Positions 1 through 32,039 of a stretch of DNA of 32,039 nucleotides are shown piece after piece. The position numbers and the translations under genes were made by a program. The DNA is from an uncultured Rhodospirillales bacterium (GTDB taxonomy: Bacteria; Pseudomonadota; Alphaproteobacteria; Azospirillales; Azospirillaceae). Each line of letters starts with the position of its first letter. Position 1 is the stretch's first letter. The stretch is from NCBI GenBank assembly GCA_903927615.1, contig CAIYNU010000093.1:1-32039 (forward strand), written 5' to 3'. The notes under the pieces were generated by a model. It was not told the origin of the DNA, searched no databases, and was given only the letters and a program-made list of their open reading frames with translations.

Positions 1-137
1 GCTGAACAACTGCTCAGACCGCCGATCTTCCCCACGCATCCCAGGCCGCCATCATCTTCGGTTCTCTCTATGCGCCGAATTATACGCACTGAATGCTCAT
101 TATACAACCGTATTCTTTGGCGTTTTTCCGCAGCCTG

Positions 138-2672
138 CTAGGCCGGCAGCGTGACGAAGACATCGTCCGGGAACGTTACCCCGATGGCCGGCTGTTGGCG
201 GTTGCCGGTCAGGTCCGAGACCAGATGGACCAGGGTGTCCGCCAGATGGTTCATGCTGATCCGGCCGGTGTGCTCGCGATCGGCGCCGCCGCGCAGGGCG
301 TGCAGCAGCGCCCAGGTGAACACCCCATGCCCCAGTTCGGCCCGCTCCACCGAGATCTGGTCGGCCGAAGACGACGTCACCACCGAGACGTTGGTCATGG
401 CCAGGGCGGCATGCACCGCCCGGGCATCCCGGACCAGCGGCCCGCCGACCGCCGTCGCCGCCCCGGCGTGACAGGTGTCCAGCAGCAGCAGCACCCGCCC
501 CAGCGTCCCCAGTTGCGCCACTTCTTCGCGCAACTCGTCGCCGGACAGCGCCGTGGCCCGAATCCGGGTCTTTGTGCTGGTGTCGACCTGATAGGGCAGC
601 AGGTAGAATTTATCGTCCACCAGACCGCCATGCCCCGCCACCAGCACCACCGCCACGTCCTTGCCCTCGCCCCGGCCCATGACCTCCCGGAGGGTTTTCA
701 GGGTCTGGAGGATGCCGGTTTTGGTGGCGTCCCGGTTGAGCAGCAGATACCGGACAACCTCGGCATAGAGGCTGCCTTGGGAGCTGTCGTCCAGGACATT
801 GAGCACCTCCCAGGCGTCCCGGGCGGCATAGGTCAGGCGCAGATGGTCGGCGTCGGGGCCGTAATCGTCGATTCCCACCGTCAGCACATGCAGCCGCGCC
901 CCGGGCCGGGTCCCGGTGCGCCGCCGCACCGCACCCCGGGCCCGCTCCAGTTCCACCAGGCCGAGCGCCCGGACGGTGTCCAGTTCCTGGAGCACCCGCG
1001 ACAGCACCGCCGGCCGGTACAAGTGGGAAATCTCCGAGACCGGCACCAACTCGCCCGCCTCATCCCACCCGCGGTTGACATGCCAGCCCAGCACCGAGCG
1101 CGCCTCCGGCGTCGCCCCATAAAACCCCTCGGGGGTCCACGCCACCCAGTTCCGGCGGTCCCCCAGCGGCTTGAAGGCCAACAACTCCTGTCCGTCGTTC
1201 ATCCGGTGCCAGCGAATCGTGCCGTCGCCATAGGCCGCCACCACCAGCCGGCCATCCCCAGTGATGTTGACCGCCCAAACCACAGAGGGGACCGGTTGGC
1301 GCCACAGCCGCTGACCCGCGGCGTCGAATGCCCACAACCCCCACTCGCTCCCCAGCACGAAGCGATCCCCGGCCGGATGCACCGCCAGACTGCGCGACAT
1401 TTCGTTGGGCGCCAGCGGCAGCGGCCGGCCGTCGAGCCGGGGCTGTTGAGCGTCGATCCAATCGGTCAGGGCCAGCCCATCCTGTTTCGGCCGGGCAGTG
1501 AGGGCGTCGGCGGGCGGGTCCAGGCCCAAGCGGAGTGCCCGCCCGTCGAATCGGGCCGGCGTGTGCCCCCCCGGTTCATAGCCGAACGCCACCATGCTGC
1601 CGTCCGCCGACAGCCCGAGCGTCGCCCGCTGCCCCCGGAAATCGGCCTGGGCCGTCGCCCGGGTCCAAACCCTGGTGCCGTCGGGGCCGAGCCGGATCAG
1701 GATGGGATCCTGCGTCGCGACCAGCAGCCCGCCTTCCGGCAAGGGCACCAGGGTCATGATGGCGTCACCGCTCCCTGGCAGCACCCGCCGCTCACCCCGC
1801 CCCGCCCCGGCCCACGCCACCACCAGCGTCTCGCCATCGGCCCCATACCACCCGGCGGCAAACAGGGTCCGGCCGTCCGCCGACCAGGCAATGGTTGCAA
1901 GATTGCCGGTGGCGATCCCGGCGGTGTCGGGTCCCGGCCGTACCGCCAGCGTATGGCCGTCGACAATCTCCACCGCGGGGCAATCCTCAAACCCCACCGC
2001 CAACCGGTCCCCGTCGGGGCTGAAGGCCAGACCAAACGGCCGTCGGCCACCGGTTGTCTCCGCCACCGTCACCCGGTGGAACGCCCGGTCATAGAGCCGC
2101 AGGCAGCCATCATAGCTGGTGGTGGCCAGCCGGCCATCGCGGGCAAAGGCGACACCGTAACTATCGCCACCATAGTCGGGATCGCGCGCCCGTTCGGCCC
2201 ACCCGTCCCTCCGGTCGTAGAAGCGCAAACCGTTGGCCCCGCCGAGCGCCACCGCCAGCATATGGCCGTCGGGCGAAAAGGCCAGGTGATGCACCACATC
2301 GGGCAAGCCGACGATTTGCGCCGTCATACGACCGTCACGGTCGAACAGAGAGACGCTGATCCCCCGTTGCTCGGTCCCGGTCCATCCCCCTGCCGCGATG
2401 ACGTCCCCCGCCGGACTGATGGCCACCGCGTAAATCATGCCGACCTCGCCCGGTCCCCGCGGCCCCCGGATGGTCCGCAGCAGGCGGCCGTCGGCCAGGG
2501 ACCACAGCCGCACCGTGCGGTCGTGGGAGCCGGTGACCGCCACCAAGCCCGCGGCGTCCACGTCGGCGCTTCTGATCGGGGCGGTGTGCAGGCCGGGATC
2601 GATCACCAGCACCGGGCGGTCATAGAGGCCGTCGTCGGCCCGGGCCGGCGGCACCGGCGGCAGGGGCGTCAC
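138..2672 (-). CDS. WD40 beta-propeller / caspase-like (peptidase C14) protein
   Basis: 844 aa. Residues about 25-560 form a degenerate WD40-type beta-propeller (blades ending in motifs such as VRLWSLADG and RLYDRAF). A linker with the segment NWVAWTPEGFYGATPEA, which I recall as usual in WD40-caspase proteins, follows. The C-terminal 250 residues are a caspase-like fold beginning at LHVLTVGIDDYG. The catalytic dyad is intact: His681 in VAGHGG and Cys734 in LLLDTCHAG, 53 residues apart. The Asp before the Cys is typical of metacaspase/orthocaspase enzymes that cleave after Arg or Lys. GHGVFTWALLHALRG is the usual C14 C-terminal helix. No signal peptide is visible, so it is probably cytoplasmic. 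The ATG overlaps the stop of the upstream small gene (ATGA), implying translational coupling. Substrate and role are unknown; related proteins are discussed as programmed-death or defence effectors, which is inference here. Confidence 0.9.
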   Translation of the reverse strand: MTPLPPVPPARADDGLYDRPVLVIDPGLHTAPIRSADVDAAGLVAVTGSHDRTVRLWSLADGRLLRTIRGPRGPGEVGMIYAVAISPAGDVIAAGGWTGTEQRGISVSLFDRDGRMTAQIVGLPDVVHHLAFSPDGHMLAVALGGANGLRFYDRRDGWAERARDPDYGGDSYGVAFARDGRLATTSYDGCLRLYDRAFHRVTVAETTGGRRPFGLAFSPDGDRLAVGFEDCPAVEIVDGHTLAVRPGPDTAGIATGNLATIAWSADGRTLFAAGWYGADGETLVVAWAGAGRGERRVLPGSGDAIMTLVPLPEGGLLVATQDPILIRLGPDGTRVWTRATAQADFRGQRATLGLSADGSMVAFGYEPGGHTPARFDGRALRLGLDPPADALTARPKQDGLALTDWIDAQQPRLDGRPLPLAPNEMSRSLAVHPAGDRFVLGSEWGLWAFDAAGQRLWRQPVPSVVWAVNITGDGRLVVAAYGDGTIRWHRMNDGQELLAFKPLGDRRNWVAWTPEGFYGATPEARSVLGWHVNRGWDEAGELVPVSEISHLYRPAVLSRVLQELDTVRALGLVELERARGAVRRRTGTRPGARLHVLTVGIDDYGPDADHLRLTYAARDAWEVLNVLDDSSQGSLYAEVVRYLLLNRDATKTGILQTLKTLREVMGRGEGKDVAVVLVAGHGGLVDDKFYLLPYQVDTSTKTRIRATALSGDELREEVAQLGTLGRVLLLLDTCHAGAATAVGGPLVRDARAVHAALAMTNVSVVTSSSADQISVERAELGHGVFTWALLHALRGGADREHTGRISMNHLADTLVHLVSDLTGNRQQPAIGVTFPDDVFVTLPA

Positions 2673-3151
2673 CGGGACGGGATGGCGTCGAAGGCCGACC
2701 AGCGGGCGGATTCCAGGCTGTTGGCGATGGTTTCCCGGCGCAGGTGATCGTCGGCGCGGAAATTCTCGTAAAGGGTTCTCACCGCCGCGACCAGCGGTCC
2801 GACCAGCTTGTCCGCCGCGTCCGAGACCCAGGACCGCACCCCTGGTGCCGCCGGCCGCGCCGGTTTGGCCAGGCGTTCCAGGGCCTGCCGGAACCCGGCG
2901 CCCCGGTTCAGGCGGTCGATCAGGTCGGCCAGGCTGTCGGGGGTGCCGTTGGTGGTCCTGATCACCAACTGGAGCCCGGCAATCACGCCGTTGAACTCCG
3001 CCCTGCCCTGGTCATAAAGGCGCGCGCCCTCGGCGATGGCGGCGGCCTCGCCCCGAGCCTTGAGCGCCGCCACGGCGGCTTCCGCCCGTTCCCGTTCGGT
3101 GGTCAAAGTCGCCACCGCGTCTTGCCAGGTTATCTCCCGCTCCACCACCAT
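2669..3151 (-). CDS. small helical protein coupled to the caspase gene
   Basis: 160 aa from the ATG at 3151, chosen because GGGAGGG lies 4-5 nt upstream; an in-frame ATG 36 nt earlier (3187) has no such site. No family recognised. The sequence is Ala/Arg/Glu-rich and predicted mostly alpha-helical: residues 8-45 look coiled-coil-like, then a Pro/Ala hinge (KPARPAAPGVRSW), then a helical C-terminal part. No transmembrane segment or signal peptide is seen. The stop overlaps the start of the WD40-caspase gene by four bases, so the two are very likely made together at a set ratio. An adaptor, inhibitor or substrate of the protease is possible, but nothing in the sequence settles which. Confidence 0.75.
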   Translation of the reverse strand: MVVEREITWQDAVATLTTERERAEAAVAALKARGEAAAIAEGARLYDQGRAEFNGVIAGLQLVIRTTNGTPDSLADLIDRLNRGAGFRQALERLAKPARPAAPGVRSWVSDAADKLVGPLVAAVRTLYENFRADDHLRRETIANSLESARWSAFDAIPSR

Positions 3152-3582
3152 GCTGCCCTCCCAACGCCGTGCAATCCGGACATGCATACACTCGTAATCA
3201 AGCGAGTCAGCGCCGGACCGATGATCGGTGGTAGCTTAATCGGCATGGCCGGGCAACGCCATACCTCAGTCCTGGACCCAAACACGCGGGTCTGCCCGCC
3301 CGCCGCTGGCTCCGCCATCCCCAGACCGAGGTCGGGCTCTATGTTTGCTCAACCGGTTATCCGGCATGGTGTTCAGTCAGCCCGCCAACGCCGCCGAACT
3401 GCCGCATCGCCACTCGGATCCCTTGACCCGGTGGAGAAAGAGAGTATCATTATATGCTCAATGCGGCAACGCCGGGGCTGCGGGGAATGCGGTCATCGCG
3501 TCCGTTGCCGGGGGATCCCGGCAAAGCGGCGGGTTGGGTGAGATTTGCTTGAAACCAGGCCTTATCGTCAGGACAATAACCA
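3152..3582. other. 431-bp divergent intergenic region
   Basis: Lies between the caspase operon and the hybrid kinase and should hold both promoters. I see no convincing gene. A short inverted repeat, ACTCG-N8-CGAGT, lies about 40 bp upstream of the small helical gene and could be an operator. The half nearest the kinase carries the promoter candidate listed separately. Confidence 0.5.
3423..3450 (+). promoter_or_regulatory. sigma70-type promoter candidate for the PAS hybrid kinase
   Basis: TTGACC (3423-3428), 16-nt spacer, TATCAT (3445-3450), followed by an AT-rich stretch. It would give a leader of about 125 nt before the kinase ATG. Found by eye only. Confidence 0.4.
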
Positions 3583-6165
3583 ATGCCCATCCCAGACCTG
3601 ACTCCGGATGAGGAGCCTACCGCCGCAGGTCCCCGGTCTCCCAGCCTGGCCGGTGACTGGCCCTGGGACGTCATCGGCGGCGCCCAAGCCCCCCCGCCAA
3701 GCCATGGTGATCATCAGCCAAGAGTCGTGAATGAACAGGATATTTCCGAATTCATGGTCTCCCAGCAACCCCTGCTGAATGCCATTCCGATCATTTCGGC
3801 GATTATTGATACCCAGGGGACAATCTTACTGGTCAATGAGGCGTGGCGGTATTTTTGGAACCAAACGGATGGCGCTGCTGATACCCGTTGTGGCGCAAAT
3901 TATCTGGTTGCGGCTGAAAGTCTGGCCCGCGTTACCGGACCATTCTTGGTTGATCTGAGGGGCGTCCTCGCCGGCTCCCACGCCCACGCGGGTTACGACT
4001 ACCCCATCACCGTCGACGGTCATAAGCGGTGGTACCGGTGCCAGGCGGCGCCACTGTCCCGGGATAGCCGGAGGCAGCCGTCGGGCGCGTTGATTACCCA
4101 TGTGGACATCACCAAAGCGAAAGAAACCGAAGCCCTGGCCTTACAATCCGAAGGGCAGCTCGATTTTCTATTGAACAACATCCCCGACCTGATCTGGCAG
4201 AAAGATGTCGAGGGTCGATACACCTTTTGTAATAAAAAATTCGGTGATTTTGTGGGCACCCCGCCATCAAATATTATTGGAAAGACAGACTACGATTTAT
4301 TTGACCATGACCTGGCCACTTTTTTTCGAGACCATGACCAGAAGGCCGCGGCAGCCGATCAGCCCACGTCAAATGAGGAATGGGTGACCTTTGCCCATGA
4401 CGGCCGGCGGATCTTGTCGGAAACGATCAAAACCGCGGTCTACGACTCCGATGGTACGCTGGTGGGGATCCTGGGAATCGGTCACGACATTACCAAAATC
4501 CGGGCGGCCGAGCAGGCCGCACAGCAGGCCAACCGGTCCAAAAGCACCTTCGTGTCCAACATCAGCCACGAAATCCGAACGCCGATGAACGTCATCATCG
4601 GCTTCACCGACAGCCTGCGCCGGACCCTCCGGAATCCGGCCAATCTTGAAAAGCTCGAGAAAATCGATCAGGCGGCCGATCACCTGCTCCAGATCATCAA
4701 TGATATCCTGGACATCTCCAAGATCGAGGTGGGCAAGATGCAGATCGAGCCCCGGCCGTTCAGTCTGAGAACCATGATGGCAAACGTCATGTCCCAGGTG
4801 ACGGCCCAGGCCGACCGCAAGGGTTTGCAGGTCGACATGGAGATCGGCCCGGAGATTCCCGACCGGCTGCTGGGTGACGCCCTACGCCTCAGCCAATGCC
4901 TGATCAATTACGGCACCAATGCCGTGAAATTTACATTCAGGGGGGGGATTACGGTTCGCGTGGGACTGGAGCAAAAAATTGGCAGCGGGTTTCTGACCCG
5001 CTTTGAGGTGAACGATACCGGTATCGGGATCGATCCGGCGGTGGTGCCGCGCCTGTTTTCGACCTTCGAGCAGGCTGACCCGACCATCACCCGGCGCTTT
5101 GGCGGAACCGGGCTGGGTCTGGCGCTGACCCGGGAGCTTTCGACCCTGATGGGGGGTGGCGTCGGCGTGACCAGCACGCCGGGACAGGGGAGCGTGTTCT
5201 GGTTCACCGCCCTGGTCCAACCGGCGCCCGACAACGCCGATGCGACGATCACCGGCCCGACTTCCGGTCCGGCCGCGGATTTCGGCGGGGTCCGGGTGTT
5301 GGTGGCCGAGGACGTGGCGTTGAACCGCTGCGTCCTGCGGGACATGCTCGACCATTTCGGCGTCACCGCCGACATGGCGGAAAACGGCGCGGCGGCCGTG
5401 ACCATGGCCGCCGCCCTGGCCTATGACTTGATTTTGATGGACATGCAAATGCCGGTGCTGGACGGTTTATCGGCATCCATAGCCATCCGGAAGTTGCCGG
5501 GCCATGCCCGGACCCCGATCATCGCCCTCACCGCCAACGCCTCCAACGAAGACCGCAACCGCTGCCAGGCGTCGGGGATGGATGATTTCGTCGGCAAGCC
5601 GGTCCACGCCGACCTGCTGCGGGCCGTGATGTCCAAATGGCTGAACAAGACCCGCCCCGCCCGATCCGACGCCATCCCCCTCCATCCGCCCGAAACGCCG
5701 GCCCCAGACCCGGCGTCGGAATCGGCATCGGGCCCGCCGAGTCTTCGGAATGAGCATGGTCCTTTTGACCTGCAAGACGTGCTCCAACGCCTGAACGGCA
5801 ACCACCGGCTCGCCCGGCGCCTGTTCAGGAGCTTCGGCGAGACCTTCGCCCGAGCCGGTGAGGACCTGAAGCGCCTGGTCAACCTGGACACGTTGGCGAA
5901 AGCGGACGATCTGGTCCATTCCCTGAAGGGCACCGCCGGGCAACTGGCAGCCCACCCCTTGCTCGCGGTCCTCGAAGACCTGGAATCGGCTTTACAGGAC
6001 ATGCCGGCACGCCTGCACGCGGCGACCGGGGCGCTGACAACCGCCCTGGCCGACGCGGGCCGCTTGGCCGAGGCACCGGAATCCTCCTTCGTGCTGGACT
6101 CCTCACTCGTCCCGGACTTCCGGCCGGTTGCAGCATCCGCGCCCCTGGACCAACAGGGTTCCTGA
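3583..6165 (+). CDS. soluble PAS-PAS hybrid histidine kinase with receiver and HPt
   Basis: 860 aa with no transmembrane segment. Order: unstructured N-terminus (1-55); PAS about 62-180; second PAS about 191-310 (IPDLIWQKDVEGRYTFCNKKF); HisKA with His329 in SHEIRTPMN; HATPase about 430-545 with N box NYGTNAVKFT, G1 DTGIGID and G2 GGTGLGLAL; receiver with phospho-acceptor Asp620 in LILMDMQMP; Pro-rich linker; C-terminal HPt with His779 in HSLKGTAGQL. All four phosphorelay residues are present, so it can autophosphorylate and pass phosphate His-Asp-His to an external response regulator. No dedicated regulator lies beside it. AGGA about 9 nt upstream supports the ATG. The PAS ligand (redox, gas or small molecule) cannot be read from sequence. 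Divergent from the caspase operon, with no evidence that it controls it. Confidence 0.95.
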   Translation: MPIPDLTPDEEPTAAGPRSPSLAGDWPWDVIGGAQAPPPSHGDHQPRVVNEQDISEFMVSQQPLLNAIPIISAIIDTQGTILLVNEAWRYFWNQTDGAADTRCGANYLVAAESLARVTGPFLVDLRGVLAGSHAHAGYDYPITVDGHKRWYRCQAAPLSRDSRRQPSGALITHVDITKAKETEALALQSEGQLDFLLNNIPDLIWQKDVEGRYTFCNKKFGDFVGTPPSNIIGKTDYDLFDHDLATFFRDHDQKAAAADQPTSNEEWVTFAHDGRRILSETIKTAVYDSDGTLVGILGIGHDITKIRAAEQAAQQANRSKSTFVSNISHEIRTPMNVIIGFTDSLRRTLRNPANLEKLEKIDQAADHLLQIINDILDISKIEVGKMQIEPRPFSLRTMMANVMSQVTAQADRKGLQVDMEIGPEIPDRLLGDALRLSQCLINYGTNAVKFTFRGGITVRVGLEQKIGSGFLTRFEVNDTGIGIDPAVVPRLFSTFEQADPTITRRFGGTGLGLALTRELSTLMGGGVGVTSTPGQGSVFWFTALVQPAPDNADATITGPTSGPAADFGGVRVLVAEDVALNRCVLRDMLDHFGVTADMAENGAAAVTMAAALAYDLILMDMQMPVLDGLSASIAIRKLPGHARTPIIALTANASNEDRNRCQASGMDDFVGKPVHADLLRAVMSKWLNKTRPARSDAIPLHPPETPAPDPASESASGPPSLRNEHGPFDLQDVLQRLNGNHRLARRLFRSFGETFARAGEDLKRLVNLDTLAKADDLVHSLKGTAGQLAAHPLLAVLEDLESALQDMPARLHAATGALTTALADAGRLAEAPESSFVLDSSLVPDFRPVAASAPLDQQGS

Positions 6166-26192: not shown

Positions 26193-28091
26193 TCACCGGT
26201 CGATTTTAAACTGCGCGATGGTCGCCGTGGTCGCCTCGGAAAGCTGGCGCAAATCCACCAGCCTTTGGGAAATTTGCTCGCCGGCCTGGACGTTATGCTC
26301 ACCGATCCGGGCCAGGCTGTCGGCGGTGGCGTCGATTTCGAGGATGGCCGACTGCTGGGCCAGCATGGCTTCGGCAATGGTGCGGATCAAGCCGTCGGTT
26401 TCTACCACCCGCAGGTGAATGTCGTCGATCACCCGGCGGGCGGTTCCGGCCACCACCAGTCCGGCCTGAAGATCACGATTGGCGGCGTCGAGCAGCGCCA
26501 CGATCCGGGCGGCATAGTCCCCGGCCTGCCCGGTCAGCGCGCTGATCTGGTGGCCGATCGCCGCAAAGCCGTGGCCATGCTCGCCCAGGCGGGCCGCTTC
26601 CACCGCCGCGGTGGCGGCCAGCAGGTCCGTTTTGGTGACGATGTGGCCCAACGCCTGGGCCATCTGCGCGACGTTACGGCCGCCGGCGGTCAGCGCCTCG
26701 ACCAGATCGGCCAGTTCGGCAACGGTGATCTGGCCGCGATTGGCCAGACCGGTCGCCTGATCGGCGACGGCGCTGGCGGTGCCCGCGGTGCCGCTGACTC
26801 TGGTAATGACCTCCGCCGACTGGCGGATGGCCTCGCGCACCTGTTCCAGGGAACGCGCCTGTTCGGCCGCCCCGGCATTGACCTCGACCACCGCACCGCT
26901 GGCATCGCCGGCCGCCATCGCAACCTTGCCGGCATCGTTGCCGATGGTCACGAACGCCGCACACACCGAATCAAAGAGCTGATTCACCGCATGGCTGATG
27001 GTGGCGACAAAGCCCGTGCGCCCTTCGACCGGTGCGCGATTGCGGAAGTCGCCGTCCTGCGCCGCCAGTTGGATCAACTCGCCGATTTCCTCGGCGACGC
27101 GGGCGGCGGTCGCCATTTCGGCTATCGGCCGGGACACCTTCCGGCTGACCACAATCGCACACACAATCCCGAGGCCGATGGCGAACAGAGTCAGCACCCC
27201 GATCACCAGCTTGGCATGGGCTAGGTGATCACCGACCCTCTGGCTGATCTCCTCGGCGCGATCGGTCTGTAATTTACGCACGGCGTTGGAGGTCGAAGAA
27301 ATTTCCTTGCCGATGACTTCCATGGCTTCGTTGGTCAGCGTCTCCAACTGAAAGGCGACGGCCGCGGCCGCCTCAAAGCTGGCCGCAAAGTTTTCCGCCA
27401 GGGTGACGATCTCGGCAAGTCTGGCCTGACGGTCGGCCGGCTGACCCGCGCCGGCGTCCTTAAGCTGCTGAAGCTCCTTGACCTGCTGAAGGAAGGTCAG
27501 GGCCAGTTCATGTCCGCTCTGGTGCCAGCGTTCGGTGGAATGGGCCTCGAAGCGAATCACGTCGAGCCGACTCCGCATCAAGGTTTCCATCGGCACGGAA
27601 ATCGCCGCTTCCGCATGGGCCGCCTTGCCGAACTCATCCAGTCTGGTCCGGCAATGAAGGCCGATGGCATCGGTATCATTCAACATGGCGATCTTCTTCG
27701 TCCGCAAAGCCGCCGCCTGATCGAATCGGGCACGGAACGACGTCAACAGGGCCCGCAGCCGTTCCAGTCCCTGCCGCCGCTCGGCTGATGTGATCACCGC
27801 CAGCCCGTCTTCCAGTTCGTGTAGGGCCTCGCGATCCAGTTCATCAAGCCGCCCGAGCAACGAGTCGTCACCAGTTTCCAGATAGGTCTGAACATAGCGG
27901 CGGAACGACGCGGTGTTGCGGTCGGCCAACACCACCTTCAGGGTGCCCTCGGCGATCCGGCTCGATTCGGTAAACTCTTTGACCGTTTCATCGAAAGACA
28001 AATAACTGAGGCTGCCGACCCCCGCGAGCAGGACCAGGACCGACAGAAAGCCTCCCCAAATCCACCAGCGAACCTTACTGTCTTCCGACAC
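26193..28091 (-). CDS. methyl-accepting chemotaxis-like protein with altered signalling tip
   Basis: 632 aa from the GTG at 28091, which has GGAGG 6 nt upstream; an ATG 36 nt earlier lacks a site. TM1 8-30; a long all-helical periplasmic domain (31-293) like the helical-bimodular/CHASE3 class (FRRYVQTYLETGDDSLLGRLDELD); TM2 294-314; HAMP about 316-368; coiled-coil signalling domain 380-630. The hairpin tip reads TKTDLLAATAAVEAARLGE then HGHGFAAIGHQISALT. In ordinary receptors it is QTNLLALNAAIEAARAGE then GRGFAVVA.EVR. EAAR and GE are kept, but the LALN Asn and the EVR arm are changed. Coupling to CheA/CheW is therefore doubtful. No C-terminal CheR tether. Divergent from the Cache-HAMP/channel operon and upstream of chrA. 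Confidence 0.92.
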   Translation of the reverse strand: MSEDSKVRWWIWGGFLSVLVLLAGVGSLSYLSFDETVKEFTESSRIAEGTLKVVLADRNTASFRRYVQTYLETGDDSLLGRLDELDREALHELEDGLAVITSAERRQGLERLRALLTSFRARFDQAAALRTKKIAMLNDTDAIGLHCRTRLDEFGKAAHAEAAISVPMETLMRSRLDVIRFEAHSTERWHQSGHELALTFLQQVKELQQLKDAGAGQPADRQARLAEIVTLAENFAASFEAAAAVAFQLETLTNEAMEVIGKEISSTSNAVRKLQTDRAEEISQRVGDHLAHAKLVIGVLTLFAIGLGIVCAIVVSRKVSRPIAEMATAARVAEEIGELIQLAAQDGDFRNRAPVEGRTGFVATISHAVNQLFDSVCAAFVTIGNDAGKVAMAAGDASGAVVEVNAGAAEQARSLEQVREAIRQSAEVITRVSGTAGTASAVADQATGLANRGQITVAELADLVEALTAGGRNVAQMAQALGHIVTKTDLLAATAAVEAARLGEHGHGFAAIGHQISALTGQAGDYAARIVALLDAANRDLQAGLVVAGTARRVIDDIHLRVVETDGLIRTIAEAMLAQQSAILEIDATADSLARIGEHNVQAGEQISQRLVDLRQLSEATTATIAQFKIDR

Positions 28092-28160
28092 TTGACACCT
28101 CCGCCCTTTTTTCCGCAATAATCCCAAACCATGCCCTTAAAGCAAGAACGGTTTTCACCA

Positions 28161-28256
28161 GGGTGTCGTTTCATCAAGGTGTCGTTTCGTCGGGGTGTCG
28201 TTTCGTCGGGATGTCGTTTCGTCGGGATGTCGTTTCATCGGGGTGTCGTCCCGTCA
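28161..28256. repeat. six tandem copies of a 16-bp repeat
   Basis: Units start at 28161, 28177, 28193, 28209, 28225 and 28241; consensus GGGTGTCGTTTCGTCG, with one to four substitutions per copy and no spacer. It lies in the 250-bp region between the divergent chemoreceptor and the Cache-HAMP/channel operon, 70 bp from the former start and 86 bp from the latter. Possible roles: an array of regulator sites serving both promoters, or a variable-number tract that tunes them. Confidence 0.92.
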
Positions 28257-28341: not shown

Positions 28342-29505
28342 ATGAAATTAAAGGTCATCGCGCCCGTTGCACTGGTCTTCAGTGTGGCACTGGTCCTGGT
28401 GTTCATCAGCGTGATCTCCTACCAGAATGCCCGAGAGACCGTCGATTGGGCCAAAGGCAAAGAATTGACCGGTCTGTCGGCGATGATCGAGGAGTTGCTG
28501 CGGGAGGAACAGCATCAGGCGGTCGCCGAAGCCGAGATGCTGGCGGCGCTGCCCCAGGTGGGGGAACTGGCGGCGAAAGGGGATCGCGACGGTCTGATCA
28601 AGATGTTGATGCCGGGCTACCGCAAGGAAGTGACCAAATACGGCATTGAATCCTCCGCCATTATCTTGCCGCCGGCAACAACCCTGCTGCGGTTACACGA
28701 TCCGGACAAGTTCGGCGACGACCAGAGTGTCAACCGGCCCATCTATGTCTTTGCCAACCAGACCCGCGAAGTCGAGTCGGGGCTGGAGATCAGTTCGGTT
28801 GCCGGCATCCGCGGCGTGGCGCCCATTTATAACGGCGATATCCATGTCGGCGCGCTGGAATGGGCGATCGGGCTGGAGCCCCTGGTGGCCGATCTGAAGA
28901 GTATTACCGGTGCCGAAGTCGCGGTCATGATTAAAGGCTCGGTCATTCCGGCGCAAAGCCACATCCGCGACAACCAGTCCCACACGCTCAAGGACTTCAT
29001 CGCCGCCCAGGCCACCGACTGGACCTACCTTTCCGGCGCCTTGCGCGAAACCGATGTCGATCAGGCCAACGAGGCGGCGGTCTCTACCCGCACCGTCGCC
29101 GGCATTGATGTCGGCGTGGTCAAGGTGCCGCTGTTCGACTTCAGCGGCCGGAATGTCGGTGTGGTTCTCGCGGTCAAGGAGATCAGCGCGTTCGGCCGCA
29201 CCCTCAAGGACACGCTGGTGCATCTCACCATGGCGGCCGGCATCGGTCTGCTCGTGACCGCGGGGGTCTCGTTACTGATCATTTCGGGGTTATTGCTGCG
29301 ACCGTTGGAGCGACTCGGCGCCCGGCTGAAAAGCCTGGCGGGCGGGGATTTTTCGACCAAGGTCGAAGCGGTGGCACGCCGTGACGAAATCGGGGTCCTG
29401 GCCGCCAGCATCGAATCCCTGCGTGTGGACCTGTTGCGGCGCTACCCGCCCGGATCGGCGCCGCCCCTGCCCGCGGCCGACCAGAACCAGGAGGTCGCCC
29501 GGTGA
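28342..29505 (+). CDS. double-Cache/HAMP membrane sensor lacking an output domain
   Basis: 387 aa from the ATG at 28342 (MKLKVIAPVALVF), with AGGA about 9 nt upstream; the frame is open further back but only through the tandem repeat. TM1 5-26; periplasmic region 27-292 of double-Cache type, resembling the dCache_3 sensors of chemoreceptors (LLRLHDPDKFGDD, ANQTREVESGLEIS, GIRGVAPIYNGDIHVGALEW); TM2 293-318; HAMP about 319-365 (RPLERLGARLKSLAGGDFS, DEIGVLAASIESL). Where a methyl-accepting or kinase domain should follow, the protein ends after about 20 Pro-rich residues. No frameshifted remnant is visible, because the next gene begins within the stop codon. It is translationally coupled (GTGA) to the pentameric channel gene, so the channel is the natural candidate for its output. 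Confidence 0.88.
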   Translation: MKLKVIAPVALVFSVALVLVFISVISYQNARETVDWAKGKELTGLSAMIEELLREEQHQAVAEAEMLAALPQVGELAAKGDRDGLIKMLMPGYRKEVTKYGIESSAIILPPATTLLRLHDPDKFGDDQSVNRPIYVFANQTREVESGLEISSVAGIRGVAPIYNGDIHVGALEWAIGLEPLVADLKSITGAEVAVMIKGSVIPAQSHIRDNQSHTLKDFIAAQATDWTYLSGALRETDVDQANEAAVSTRTVAGIDVGVVKVPLFDFSGRNVGVVLAVKEISAFGRTLKDTLVHLTMAAGIGLLVTAGVSLLIISGLLLRPLERLGARLKSLAGGDFSTKVEAVARRDEIGVLAASIESLRVDLLRRYPPGSAPPLPAADQNQEVAR

Positions 29506-30548
29506 GCCGGCGTCCGTGGCTGCCGGCGGCGCTGTTTGCCGGACTCGTGCTGTGGGCCTTGGCGCAACCGGTCCTGGCGGCCACCGGGGTGCCCGGGCCG
29601 CCGGCCGACGACGGCCTGCCGGCCCGGATTCAGCCGACCGTGACCATCGACCGGATTCCCGAAATCGATGAAAAAGACAGCCTGTTTAAGACGATGCTGA
29701 CCCTCAGCTATGTCTGGCATGACCATCGCCTGGCCTTTGACCACCGGGTGACCGGCCGCGATGTCTACGAATTCTTCAACGAGGCGGCCCAAGCCAAAAT
29801 CGCCACCATCTGGACGCCGAAAATCACCATCCTCAACAGCGCCGAAGTTCCGAGGATCATCGGCATCATTCTGGTGATCCATCACGACGGGACGGTTCAG
29901 ATTACGGAAAAAGTCGCGGCCAGCCTGGAGACCAGCTATTCCTTCGCCGACTTTCCGTTTGACCGGCAACAACTGGTCCTGCGCCTGGCGTCGTCCGAAT
30001 TCAGCCGGGAGGCGGTCCTGATCCGCGACGTGGCGGTGATCCCGAACCCGCGGCTGGCGATCAAGAACTGGCATGTGCTGCGCACCACCGCCGAACTCGG
30101 CGAAAGCACCAGCATCACCGGACGTCAGTTATCCACCTGCATGCTCACGGTTGAGGTAAAACGCAGTTCCTCGGTGGCCGTTACCCAGATCTTTTTGCCT
30201 TATCTGGCTATTATTTTCTTACCATTGATCTGCCTGTTTAATGTCGGCGCGTCAACGCCAACCCAATTGTTTACGGCACTGTTGGCCTTACTGACTTTGA
30301 ACTTCAAGGTTGTGCTGGAACAACCAACCATTATCAGCGTCAACAATTCGGTGGTCGACGCCATGTGGATGGGCTACTGCGTCATCGGCATCAATCTGAT
30401 GCTCGCCTTTACGGTGATGCGCGCCCGGCCGGCAGAAGCGCCGCCGCTTGGGGATGTGTATCAGGAATTGCGCAATTTCATCAAATGGGCCGTGCCCATC
30501 GCCTTTCTGGTGCTGGTGGTCGGTCGGGTGTTGCTGGCACAGAACTGA
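29502..30548 (+). CDS. pentameric ligand-gated ion channel (prokaryotic Cys-loop/Pro-loop family)
   Basis: 348 aa from a GTG that overlaps the sensor gene's stop. Signal peptide 1-27 (ending PVLA-ATG). Extracellular beta-sandwich domain about 45-222 with family marks LTLSYVWHDHRLAF, WTPKITILNS and the Pro-loop YSFADFPFDRQQLVLRL (Pro152), which takes the place of the disulfide Cys-loop of animal receptors. Four membrane helices: M1 226-247 (IFLPYLAIIFLPLICLF), M2 252-273 (TPTQLFTALLALLTLNF, pore-lining), M3 283-306, M4 325-346. It is thus related to GLIC, ELIC and nicotinic/GABA receptors. M2 lacks the N-terminal Glu that makes GLIC cation-selective, so ion preference cannot be called. It should sit in the inner membrane with its ligand domain in the periplasm, next to the coupled Cache sensor. 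Confidence 0.95.
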   Translation: MSRRPWLPAALFAGLVLWALAQPVLAATGVPGPPADDGLPARIQPTVTIDRIPEIDEKDSLFKTMLTLSYVWHDHRLAFDHRVTGRDVYEFFNEAAQAKIATIWTPKITILNSAEVPRIIGIILVIHHDGTVQITEKVAASLETSYSFADFPFDRQQLVLRLASSEFSREAVLIRDVAVIPNPRLAIKNWHVLRTTAELGESTSITGRQLSTCMLTVEVKRSSSVAVTQIFLPYLAIIFLPLICLFNVGASTPTQLFTALLALLTLNFKVVLEQPTIISVNNSVVDAMWMGYCVIGINLMLAFTVMRARPAEAPPLGDVYQELRNFIKWAVPIAFLVLVVGRVLLAQN

Positions 30549-30951
30549 TTCCGGCGGACCACACGATCCGGCGTCCCTTGGTGACTCCTTGAAGTCACAG
30601 GCGAGGACATCACACCGACAAGCTTGAATTTTGACCTATCAAGGGGGCTTTGCCCCCTTGACCCCCACCAGGACCGAGGCGGTCCTGGACCTCCGATACC
30701 TTTAGGGTTCGAGGGGCCACCGGCTCGGTTCCGGCCAAGGTCGTGAGATGTGCGCACCTTTAACTTGATATTTTGATACTGCTAAACAATGCCATAAACA
30801 TATTATTGTATGTGGATGGTTACGACCCCCCAATTCTTCGGGAACTTTTTAATCTCTGTTGACACCGAAAGCATTTTAGTCAAATTTATTGTCACCTGAT
30901 GTTCGTAAGGGGCACACACTCTGCCATCTTAACTTTTTAATGGGGACTGGC
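30549..30951. other. 403-bp intergenic region with hairpins and AT-rich promoter zone
   Basis: First 150 bp: GC-rich with two hairpins (listed separately), probably the end of the channel operon. From about 30755 to 30945: clearly AT-rich compared with the rest of the window, with an inverted repeat ACATA-N6-TATGT (30798-30813) and a TTGACA at 30859-30864 that could be a -35 element for the lipoprotein gene, though no good -10 follows at 17 nt. No gene seen. Confidence 0.5.
30641..30688. terminator. twin GC-rich hairpins after the channel gene
   Basis: AAGGGGGC-TTT-GCCCCCTT (30641-30659), then CCAGGACC-N5-GGTCCTGG (30668-30688), linked by a GACCCCCA run. The first stem-loop ends in only two T residues, so it is an imperfect intrinsic terminator. 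It belongs to the same hairpin family seen at 8821 and 22705. Confidence 0.5.
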
Positions 30952-32039
30952 ATGAACACCGTGTTACGCGGCGCCCTAGGTGTTGCGGTCGCGCTGGGGC
31001 TATCGTCCTGTAATGATGTCCAGGACTGGCGGTTTCACCAACTCACTTTCAACGATGCCGGTTCGGCCGCGGTTGCGGTTCTGTCGGTCCGACACTGGGA
31101 GGATGCCCGACAGGGTCTGCAACCCAGCTTTAAAATGGACGCCGACACCGCCCTGAAAGCCGTACTGCCGGTCACCGGGCAAATTGATCAGCGGACCCTC
31201 GTCGACACCATCGCCAAAGCGAGCATTCAACCGGTCGGTAATTCCCGAACGGTTGGACCGTCTTCGGGAACGACCACGCCGATCCTGAACAAATCCCTGG
31301 CCGATGCCTTGCCGGCCCTGGCGGCGCCGGCCTCGGGTGCCTTATCCAGTGACCCGGTCATGAAATATCTGGCCGCGACCGCCTTGTATCAGGAGGTCGA
31401 CATCTTAAACAATTATGTCAAGAATGCCGTAACCTGGGAGGAGGGCAACCAAGCGTACTTGGTCAATCTTCGGGTGTCCTTAATGCCGCAACGGCGCGAC
31501 CTGCCCCTGGATGCCCTTACCGAACTCAGTTTTCTGCCCTTTGACGTGGATAGCCCAAACGACAGTAAGGTGAATTGCCCGAACGACAGTAAGGTGAATA
31601 GCCCAAACGACGGTAAGGTGAATTGCCCGAACGACAATAAGGTGAATAACCCAAACGACGGTAAGGTGAATTGCCGGGTTGAGGTTGTGCCATTGCTGGT
31701 CACCGACAACCTCGAAAGCTTGCAACGTTCGCGCAGTGGCGTAACTGCCGAAGAGTTCGGGCTGAACCTGCAACTGTTGCTTAAAGCGCTGGATGTGACC
31801 GGAGATTTCCAACAACTGTCCCAGGCGTTGGCCGCCCAGTATGGTCATGACCTCAACAGCCTGTTCACGGTCGCGCGCATCGCCCATGATACCGTCAGTG
31901 TCCGGTTCGGCGCCTCGGCAACCCCGGGCCCGTCGGAATTTACTATGTTGCCGATGACCCATGACGTCTCTGTAATGGTCGTTCTCCGCAACTGTATCCC
32001 GGAATCCACTGGCAATGTTGTTGCGAAAGCCCCCGTTAA
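30952..32039 (+). CDS. unidentified lipoprotein with internal repeat, 3' end outside window
   Basis: At least 362 codons, with no stop before the window ends two bases into a codon, so the gene is incomplete here. GGGGA lies 5 nt upstream of the ATG. The first 20 residues form a lipoprotein signal with lipobox LSSC (Cys20), so it is exported and lipid-anchored. No family recognised. The mature part is mixed (TLVDTIAKASIQP, MKYLAATALYQEVDILNNYV, WEEGNQAYLVNLRVSLMPQRRDLPLDA, then VEVVPLLVTDNLES). Residues 201-240 are five copies of an 8-residue repeat (PNDSKVN type) that interrupts an otherwise beta-strand-like segment. Upstream is an AT-rich promoter region, so it is probably its own transcription unit. 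Function unknown. Confidence 0.85.
   Translation, partial: MNTVLRGALGVAVALGLSSCNDVQDWRFHQLTFNDAGSAAVAVLSVRHWEDARQGLQPSFKMDADTALKAVLPVTGQIDQRTLVDTIAKASIQPVGNSRTVGPSSGTTTPILNKSLADALPALAAPASGALSSDPVMKYLAATALYQEVDILNNYVKNAVTWEEGNQAYLVNLRVSLMPQRRDLPLDALTELSFLPFDVDSPNDSKVNCPNDSKVNSPNDGKVNCPNDNKVNNPNDGKVNCRVEVVPLLVTDNLESLQRSRSGVTAEEFGLNLQLLLKALDVTGDFQQLSQALAAQYGHDLNSLFTVARIAHDTVSVRFGASATPGPSEFTMLPMTHDVSVMVVLRNCIPESTGNVVAKAPV
31552..31671 (+). repeat. 24-bp in-frame coding minisatellite, five copies
   Basis: Five tandem 24-bp units, each encoding (S/C/N)PND(S/G/N)KVN. Odd units begin AGCCCAAAC or AACCCAAAC and even units TGCCCGAAC, so there is a 48-bp higher-order period that suggests duplication of a two-unit block. 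It lies inside the lipoprotein gene and keeps its frame. Confidence 0.93.

Follow-up and report, generated by a model that had tools for sequence, protein, structure and literature searches.

We have analysed a 32,039-nucleotide stretch of DNA from an uncultured Rhodospirillales bacterium (assembly GCA_903927615.1, contig CAIYNU010000093.1, positions 1 to 32,039 of the forward strand; hereafter the window), in which the gene of a sensor devoid of an output domain overlaps the start of a gene for a channel of the pentameric ligand-gated type. Sequence comparisons are best read as indicating that the sensor, a double-Cache (dCache) protein, would be a dedicated regulatory subunit of the channel, acting via its periplasmic and membrane parts. 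The two genes would encode one receptor of two subunits: the periplasmic double-Cache protein would sense a small solute and, via periplasmic and transmembrane contact, would open, close or tune the channel, which would be the output replacing the methyl-accepting domain of the sensor's chemoreceptor-like relatives. We regard a functional coupling of the two genes as highly probable and direct regulation of channel gating by the sensor as rather probable, with the remainder falling mostly to an assembly or stabilizing role. The physical contact, the direction of signalling, the ligand and the ion are the putative elements of this scheme.

The original prediction described the first gene product as a transmembrane (TM)-double Cache-TM-HAMP sensor ending shortly after HAMP. 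Pfam analysis agreed with this anatomy, placing dCache_3 between two TM helices, followed by HAMP and by no output domain in the last 25 residues (the predicted tail of about 20 residues was slightly too short). The GTGA overlap between the sensor stop and the channel start was also confirmed, as were the marks of a Pro-loop pentameric channel in the second gene. Besides PF02931 and the FPFD Pro-loop, the channel has the pre-M1 Arg221, beta9 Trp190, M1 Pro233 and M2-M3 Pro275 (feature list from Table 1 of PMC4795631); the latter proline is substituted in two paired channels, L096 and L101 (L and G numbers are our handles for loci and genomes). Its best solved relatives were GLIC constructs (E 4e-16), matched across the ligand-binding domain (LBD) and the membrane part, and a Foldseek search with the AlphaFold2 (AF2) model also retrieved GLIC (E 4e-20). 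Past the signal peptide, this model, of moderate confidence, consists of a beta-sandwich domain and four long helices of membrane type. The LBD begins at residue 35, with no fused N-terminal domain before it. By eye, the M2 alignment revealed no Arg or Lys at position 0' of the window channel and an Arg or Lys in two cyanobacterial representatives; a cationic residue is reported there in 79 % of cases (PMC4795631), and it is a frequent, not a defining, Pro-loop feature. We assign the protein to the pentameric ligand-gated type, its assembly and conduction being predicted.

The channel family PF02931 was searched in the window's family (5 of 82 genomes), class (5 of 385) and phylum (7 of 398), in the family of G739 (11 of 297), in the class of a Phormidium genome (29 of 291), and in the order and then the class of G487 (3 genomes of the same 48 both times). 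From these overlapping sets came 63 different channel places at E 0.001, of which G029 and G1132 fall under the family cut-off. The flanking DNA was scanned with sensor and channel profiles; since the sensor profile was built from the window-genus sensors and their long-frame homologues, very different Cache partners could be missed. An output-less dCache_3 sensor was located directly upstream of the channel, on the same strand, in 33 of the 63 places: 4/8 in the window's family, 12/12 in G739's family (same class), 16/33 in the cyanobacterial class and 1/10 elsewhere (G487, another class of the phylum). Recurrence across taxa, proposed as a check of the original prediction, was thereby observed in two phyla, with the two genes co-diverging (see below). 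Two of the pairs are fragmented (L148, L149). Seven loci from one scan of genome contigs had taxon names, the pair holders being uncultured Rhodospirillales metagenome-assembled genomes (L073, L074, L079), Pseudanabaena (L075, L077, L078) and Phormidium tenue (L076). Output-less relatives of the window sensor are 67, 65 and 28 % identical to it in three genomes of the genus, and 30 and 25 % identical in two further aligned genomes.

The remaining four channels of the window's family are of a second type; the copy in the window genome is DeCLIC-like and the other three group with it. Three of the 30 sensor-less places could not be judged, L059 and L137 lying near a contig start and the neighbours of G029 not having been fetched. 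"Unpaired" is here defined by the dCache_3-based profile together with neighbour scans at 16 of the 27 unpaired loci in our trees, in which Pfam detected no Cache domain upstream (three of the 16 genes match no family). At five unpaired loci no same-strand open reading frame (ORF) of 100 aa or more lies upstream within 400 bp (L146, L156, L157, and, at the contig start, L059 and L137), and the upstream genes of L063, L065, L066, L136, L140 and L160 were unscanned. Two paired channels had no match in 72,556 plasmid records, nor did the window channel in viral contigs. Pieces of channel genes were seen in two genomes: a 47-residue piece in G004 (G004:C241:33212-33352, L027), 66 % identical to the channel C-terminus and possibly a remnant, and pieces 57 % identical to it at the beginning of two G001 contigs.

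The sensor appears to be dedicated to the channel. PF14827 (dCache_3) places were collected at E 0.001 from 30 genomes, namely G004 and 29 pair-bearing ones. All 32 short-frame places (<500 aa) were upstream of a channel, against 0 of the 27 long-frame places (at least 508 aa), and no unpaired short-frame sensor was found in these genomes. One of the 32 is a broken-gene fragment (G1161), and the broken sensor of G1319 was unlisted. The corresponding Fisher p of 2e-17 overstates the evidence, because the genomes were picked for their channels and many are close kin. The nearest long-frame homologues have ~640-700 aa, and the ten scanned, from related genera and G487, were all dCache_3-HAMP-MCPsignal chemoreceptors (these are 10 of the 14 long-frame homologues in the sensor tree; L011, L015, L190 and L191 were unscanned). 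For this reason the paired sensor looks like a chemoreceptor minus its output, and we infer that the output domain was lost from a chemoreceptor ancestor. dCache_3 was matched in 31/31 paired sensors, and the families listed for them included no other output domain.

The existence of homologues with a normal signalling domain had been named in the original prediction as a sign of truncation. They would suit a decaying, truncated chemoreceptor lying beside the channel by chance, an explanation whose probability we consider close to negligible given that output-less relatives are next to the channel in 33 places and form one clade. The output-less form is a separate clade conserved beyond this strain; the 33 pairs, the 32/32 short-frame places and the single sensor clade ruled out a lone truncation.

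Phylogenetic analysis recovered the 31 paired sensors as one clade versus the 14 long-frame homologues (Shimodaira-Hasegawa-like approximate likelihood ratio test, SH-aLRT, 97) and the 32 paired channels as one clade versus the 27 unpaired ones (SH-aLRT 100). Left out of the trees were L149 (both genes fragmented), L062 (split channel), L161 (weak matches), G029 (under the cut-off), L071, L072 and the 750-aa proteins of the cyanobacterial loci, and the L148 sensor fragment was excluded from the sensor tree and from the mirror-tree. The L062 channel gene (5054-5982) is split into two overlapping ORFs, perhaps by a frameshift or an assembly error. The main subclades agree between the two trees. 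In both, the G002 pair, which comes from the window's own genus, is placed with the G739-family pairs; this placement is weaker in the sensor tree (support 90, long branch), because raw identity ties the G002 sensor most closely to cyanobacterial sensors (0.30) and the G002 channel to G739's family (0.40). Genomes with two pairs (G890, G1106, G1285) have one pair in each of two subclades in both trees, and G1161, whose second sensor is a fragment, follows this pattern in the channel tree. Matching subclades, the G002 pair and the two-pair genomes together fit a pair that was transferred or duplicated as one unit. The trees, which come from quick searches and contain long branches, are compatible with a single origin of the pair.

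The mirror-tree correlation was 0.985 for the 31 pairs (maximum of 0.31 in 2000 shuffles) and, among 12 divergent representatives, 0.887, which none of 5000 shuffles reached. Shared species history contributes to correlations of this kind. Gene junctions were measured from the channel start nearest to the sensor stop, the start choice being inferred. All 31 were within -8 to +21 nt, with overlaps of 4 nt in 12 pairs, 8 nt in 11 and 1 nt in two, and spacings of +1 to +21 nt in the other six. Translational coupling is likely in most pairs.

HAMP was matched in 12/31 paired sensors (Pfam, E 0.01). Eleven other sensors were scanned singly at E 0.1: HAMP was barely over the cut-off in L076 (25.4 bits), weak in L056 (15 bits) and absent in L061, L091, L092, L093, L095, L096, L098, L101 and the cyanobacterial L106. 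By eye, a DEIG-/DEVG-like HAMP end is retained in the window's two close relatives and in Cyanobacteria. The cytoplasmic tail varies among paired sensors, and that of L093 stops 9 residues past the last residue matched by the sensor profile. HAMP movement, offered in the original prediction as a link to the channel, is not the general coupling step, because HAMP is found in so few sensors; we have ruled it out as a conserved coupler. In the alignments the conserved sensor parts are the periplasmic domain and the membrane helices, with Pro321, directly after TM2, in 31/31 paired sensors. HAMP looks like a relic and would be unnecessary for the sensor-channel link. The same data bear on a signal running in reverse, with the Cache-HAMP protein reading the channel state or the ion flux. 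Gene adjacency leaves the direction unfixed and 12 of the sensors do have HAMP, but with no output domain in the sensor, and almost no cytoplasmic tail in L093, we consider a reverse signal very improbable.

The paired clade also has a signature in the channel. The M2-M3 linker is the usual element coupling the binding domain to the pore and has a role in gating. The conserved residues of the superfamily, the M2-M3 Pro included, are described as lying at the interface between the binding and membrane domains (PMC4795631). In the YxT motif of this linker, the Thr is present in 27/27 unpaired versus 1/32 paired channels and the Tyr in 24/27 versus 0/32, so that among the 59 channels the lack of YxT is confined to the paired clade. 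One of the unpaired rows (L139) is GLIC itself, recognized by its M2 sequence. A distinct linker precisely in the partnered clade is a correlation, not a mechanism. In a tentative extension of the regulatory-subunit reading, which we hold as possible, this channel clade would have ceded ligand detection to the dCache subunit and had its linker remodelled, the two-subunit receptor moving as a unit between distant bacteria. A ligand in the channel's own domain would then no longer be the main gate, this role passing to the neighbouring sensor.

On the sensor side, R82, R117, G125, D127, R132, G147 and K186 are common to the paired sensors and to 10 to 13 of the 14 long-frame homologues. Because these residues are shared, ligand sensing is probably kept by the paired sensors, and they may line the ligand pocket. 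Foldseek with the sensor model retrieved dCache ligand-binding domains (PctA, Mlp24, Mlp37 and Tlp3; best E 6e-6), the matches listed being mainly amino-acid receptors. Since residues 92-140 of the model are poorly predicted, we put forward no ligand. Other positions mark the paired clade: T225 (31/31 versus 1/14 long-frame) and G258 (30/31 versus 0/14). The segment 186-258 spans 68-76 aa in the 31 paired sensors, compared with 55-57 aa in ten of the long-frame homologues and 63-77 aa in the other four, and is a candidate region of contact with the channel.

The shared dCache residues also help in weighing a different role, in which the sensor would be needed to fold, assemble, place or keep shut the channel and would pass no ligand signal. 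Such a role would produce the same pairing, clades and co-divergence, and would suit an output-less partner with a variable cytoplasmic tail. A pure chaperone, however, might not need so many dCache residues as they occur in full-length receptors. GLIC works without such a partner, and the gene upstream of GLIC (L139) encodes ClpX. We consider this role somewhat unlikely.

Several observations weigh against the sensor being a dedicated regulator of gating. The channel may still respond to its own ligand, because the Pro-loop, the pre-M1 Arg, Trp72 and Trp190 are kept. A sensor of the Cache type, usually a dimer, would have to combine with a pentamer in an uncertain stoichiometry. Both single-chain models have moderate confidence (mean predicted local distance difference test, pLDDT, of 65.8 for the sensor and 64.6 for the channel, each from an 8-sequence alignment). 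G004, of the window's genus, is without the pair. The pair counts are not independent, because genomes were selected by their possession of a channel and many of them are closely related. Joint assembly or regulation, with no gating involved, can also keep two genes together in one transcript. Finally, a divergent methyl-accepting chemotaxis protein (MCP) gene, encoding a possible alternative partner in this genus, lies beside the pair in three of the four window-genus genomes that have the pair. This MCP, with orthologues beside the pair in G003 (61 %) and G001 (53 %) and not in G002, and the intact HAMP of the window sensor would fit two receptors of one and the same environment that are merely co-transcribed, the sensor signalling elsewhere, for instance via HAMP with full-length chemoreceptors, and the channel working alone. 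We nevertheless consider this unlikely: the MCP accompanies just two of the 32 other paired loci, most pairs have no detected HAMP, the sensor is always with one clade among the 59 channels, and no short-frame sensor is unpaired in the 30 genomes. The MCP was likewise rejected as a general partner; L094, L067 and L099 gave just weak partial matches to it (21-36 %, in flanks that differ in length).

The features of the window are collected in Table 1. The gap that separates the sensor gene from the divergent MCP gene, the expected place of a promoter, contains six copies of a 16-bp tandem repeat (28153-28249). A promoter scan returned one site, the same number as in shuffles. Downstream of the pair, the ORF 30889-32037 contains a 24/48-bp tandem repeat (31546-31675) coding an NDSKVN-type peptide repeat, and gave no Pfam match above the family cut-off.

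Table 1. Sensor-channel gene pair of the window and the adjacent MCP gene
Feature	Position	Strand	Basis and remarks
Output-less sensor gene, 387 aa (TM1-dCache_3-TM2-HAMP-25-residue tail)	28342..29505	+	Pfam, orthologues; ATG at 28342, stop 29503-29505
dCache_3, residues 42-283	28465..29190	+	PF14827, 75 bits (cut-off 25.7), E 9e-21
Second-half Cache segment, residues 186-258	28897..29115	+	Length comparison with long-frame homologues
TM2, ~residues 293-316, then Pro321	29218..29289	+	AF2 helix 282-333; limits approximate, by eye
HAMP, residues 314-362	29281..29427	+	PF00672, 40 bits (cut-off 25)
GTGA stop/start overlap, four bases	29502..29505	+	Sensor TGA over channel GTG start
Pro-loop pentameric channel gene, 348 aa, signal-peptide-like N-terminus	29502..30548	+	GTG start; Pfam, solved relatives, AF2
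Channel ligand-binding-type domain, residues 35-173	29604..30020	+	PF02931, 64.5 bits (cut-off 26)
Pro-loop FPFD, channel residues 151-154	29952-29963	+	Conserved alignment columns
Pore helix M2, residues 253-273	30258..30320	+	AF2 helix; aligned to GLIC M2
M2-M3 linker without YxT, residues 274-286	30321..30359	+	Alignment of paired versus unpaired channels
MCP gene (PF00015), divergent from the pair	26193-28127	-	Pfam

No shared operon function emerged from the ten flanking genes of seven loci of one family, which were mixed: acyl-CoA dehydrogenase, CorA, RTX repeats, mannonate dehydratase, histidine kinase, EamA, LysR, short-chain dehydrogenase, ETF-QO and one without match. A CorA-type transporter gene follows the pair in L095 (6115-7152), with ORFs of similar size there in L093 and L097. 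Nine cyanobacterial loci (L075-L078, L142, L144, L145, L148, L149) have a third gene of ~750 aa upstream of the pair. These genes match the channel profile C-terminally, and the one scanned (L076) has a periplasmic-binding-protein domain. In L159 a nitric oxide synthase gene (3-4103) has an unpaired cyanobacterial channel just downstream. The DeCLIC-type channel of the window genome (G000:C77:46733; L063 7768-9666) is followed by a PBP_like_2 gene, and that of G001 by an alpha-2-macroglobulin gene, with a 1747-aa ORF of similar size in G003. A fused Cache was rejected for the N-terminally extended channels: the L063 extension matches DeCLIC (E 1.6e-24), and that of L060 had no significant relative among solved structures.

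The idea of a Cache partner for such a channel has already been published for a single genome. Describing how prokaryotic ART-LGICs are linked to Cache or PBP domains in operons or by fusion, Tasneem et al. (2004) reported a single predicted operon, in Rhodopseudomonas, that joins a channel to a stand-alone Cache gene; they also described channels with Cache or MCP-N fused at the N-terminus, and proposed that the parts cooperate and have a role in chemotaxis (PMC549065). The window arrangement, likened to that operon by description only, shares a channel gene adjoining an output-less Cache gene, here overlapping it. The available text of PMC549065 contains no occurrence of HAMP and no mention of a TM-dCache-TM-HAMP anatomy. 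Unlike that single genome, we describe 33 places in two phyla with one clade per partner, and add co-divergence, gene overlap and the channel linker signature. A later report of the pair was not found in the open-access literature, a search scope that leaves out most subscription papers and bioRxiv preprints; within the same scope, recurrence, the two clades, co-divergence, HAMP decay and the linker signature were not found in print. The original prediction of a distinct signalling architecture therefore holds in part: the Cache-channel operon had been proposed before, and the present pair is a variant of it, shown as a conserved, specialized module. Jaiteh et al. (2016) set terminal domains aside, noting that a domain-architecture study could give insight, and "cache", "operon" and "neighbo" were not found in the available text (PMC4795631).

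Other systems share parts of the arrangement. DeCLIC is likewise a prokaryotic pentameric channel to which a periplasmic regulatory module, its N-terminal domain, has been added, but that module is fused, jelly-roll-like and Ca-binding, whereas that of the window is a separate, membrane-anchored dCache protein (PMC12664993). In the window's genus, the relatives of DeCLIC type have retained YxT, and no sensor lies next to them. The solo channels GLIC and ELIC have the Pro-loop channel fold in common with the window channel, which is ~20 % identical to GLIC, its nearest solved relative; the GLIC gene has no sensor neighbour, and an ELIC operon with an annotated glutamate decarboxylase has been reported (PMC3119659). 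The window sensor has its double-Cache periplasmic fold in common with PctA, Mlp24, Mlp37 and Tlp3, and dCache_3 and HAMP in common with the chemoreceptors of related genomes, MCPsignal being theirs only. Its best matches among solved structures, AF1503 HAMP constructs, are weak (E 0.007) and the resemblance is limited to HAMP. AF1503 is an archaeal protein in which HAMP has no known output domain. Cache domains in alpha2-delta, an animal calcium channel subunit, have been noted as a parallel (PMC549065). By analogy only, alpha2-delta is a Cache protein serving as the regulatory subunit of an ion channel. Its channel family and Cache arrangement differ from those of the window pair.

Bacterial pentameric channels are standard models for neurotransmitter receptors, and to our knowledge the natural stimuli and roles of most of them are unclear. 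A conserved partner would offer a direct handle, through the dCache ligand first and channel gating next. The paired clade also gives channel researchers a natural set with an altered M2-M3 linker. If the proposal is true, a Cache receptor would signal by ion flux and not by phosphorylation, methylation or cyclic nucleotides.

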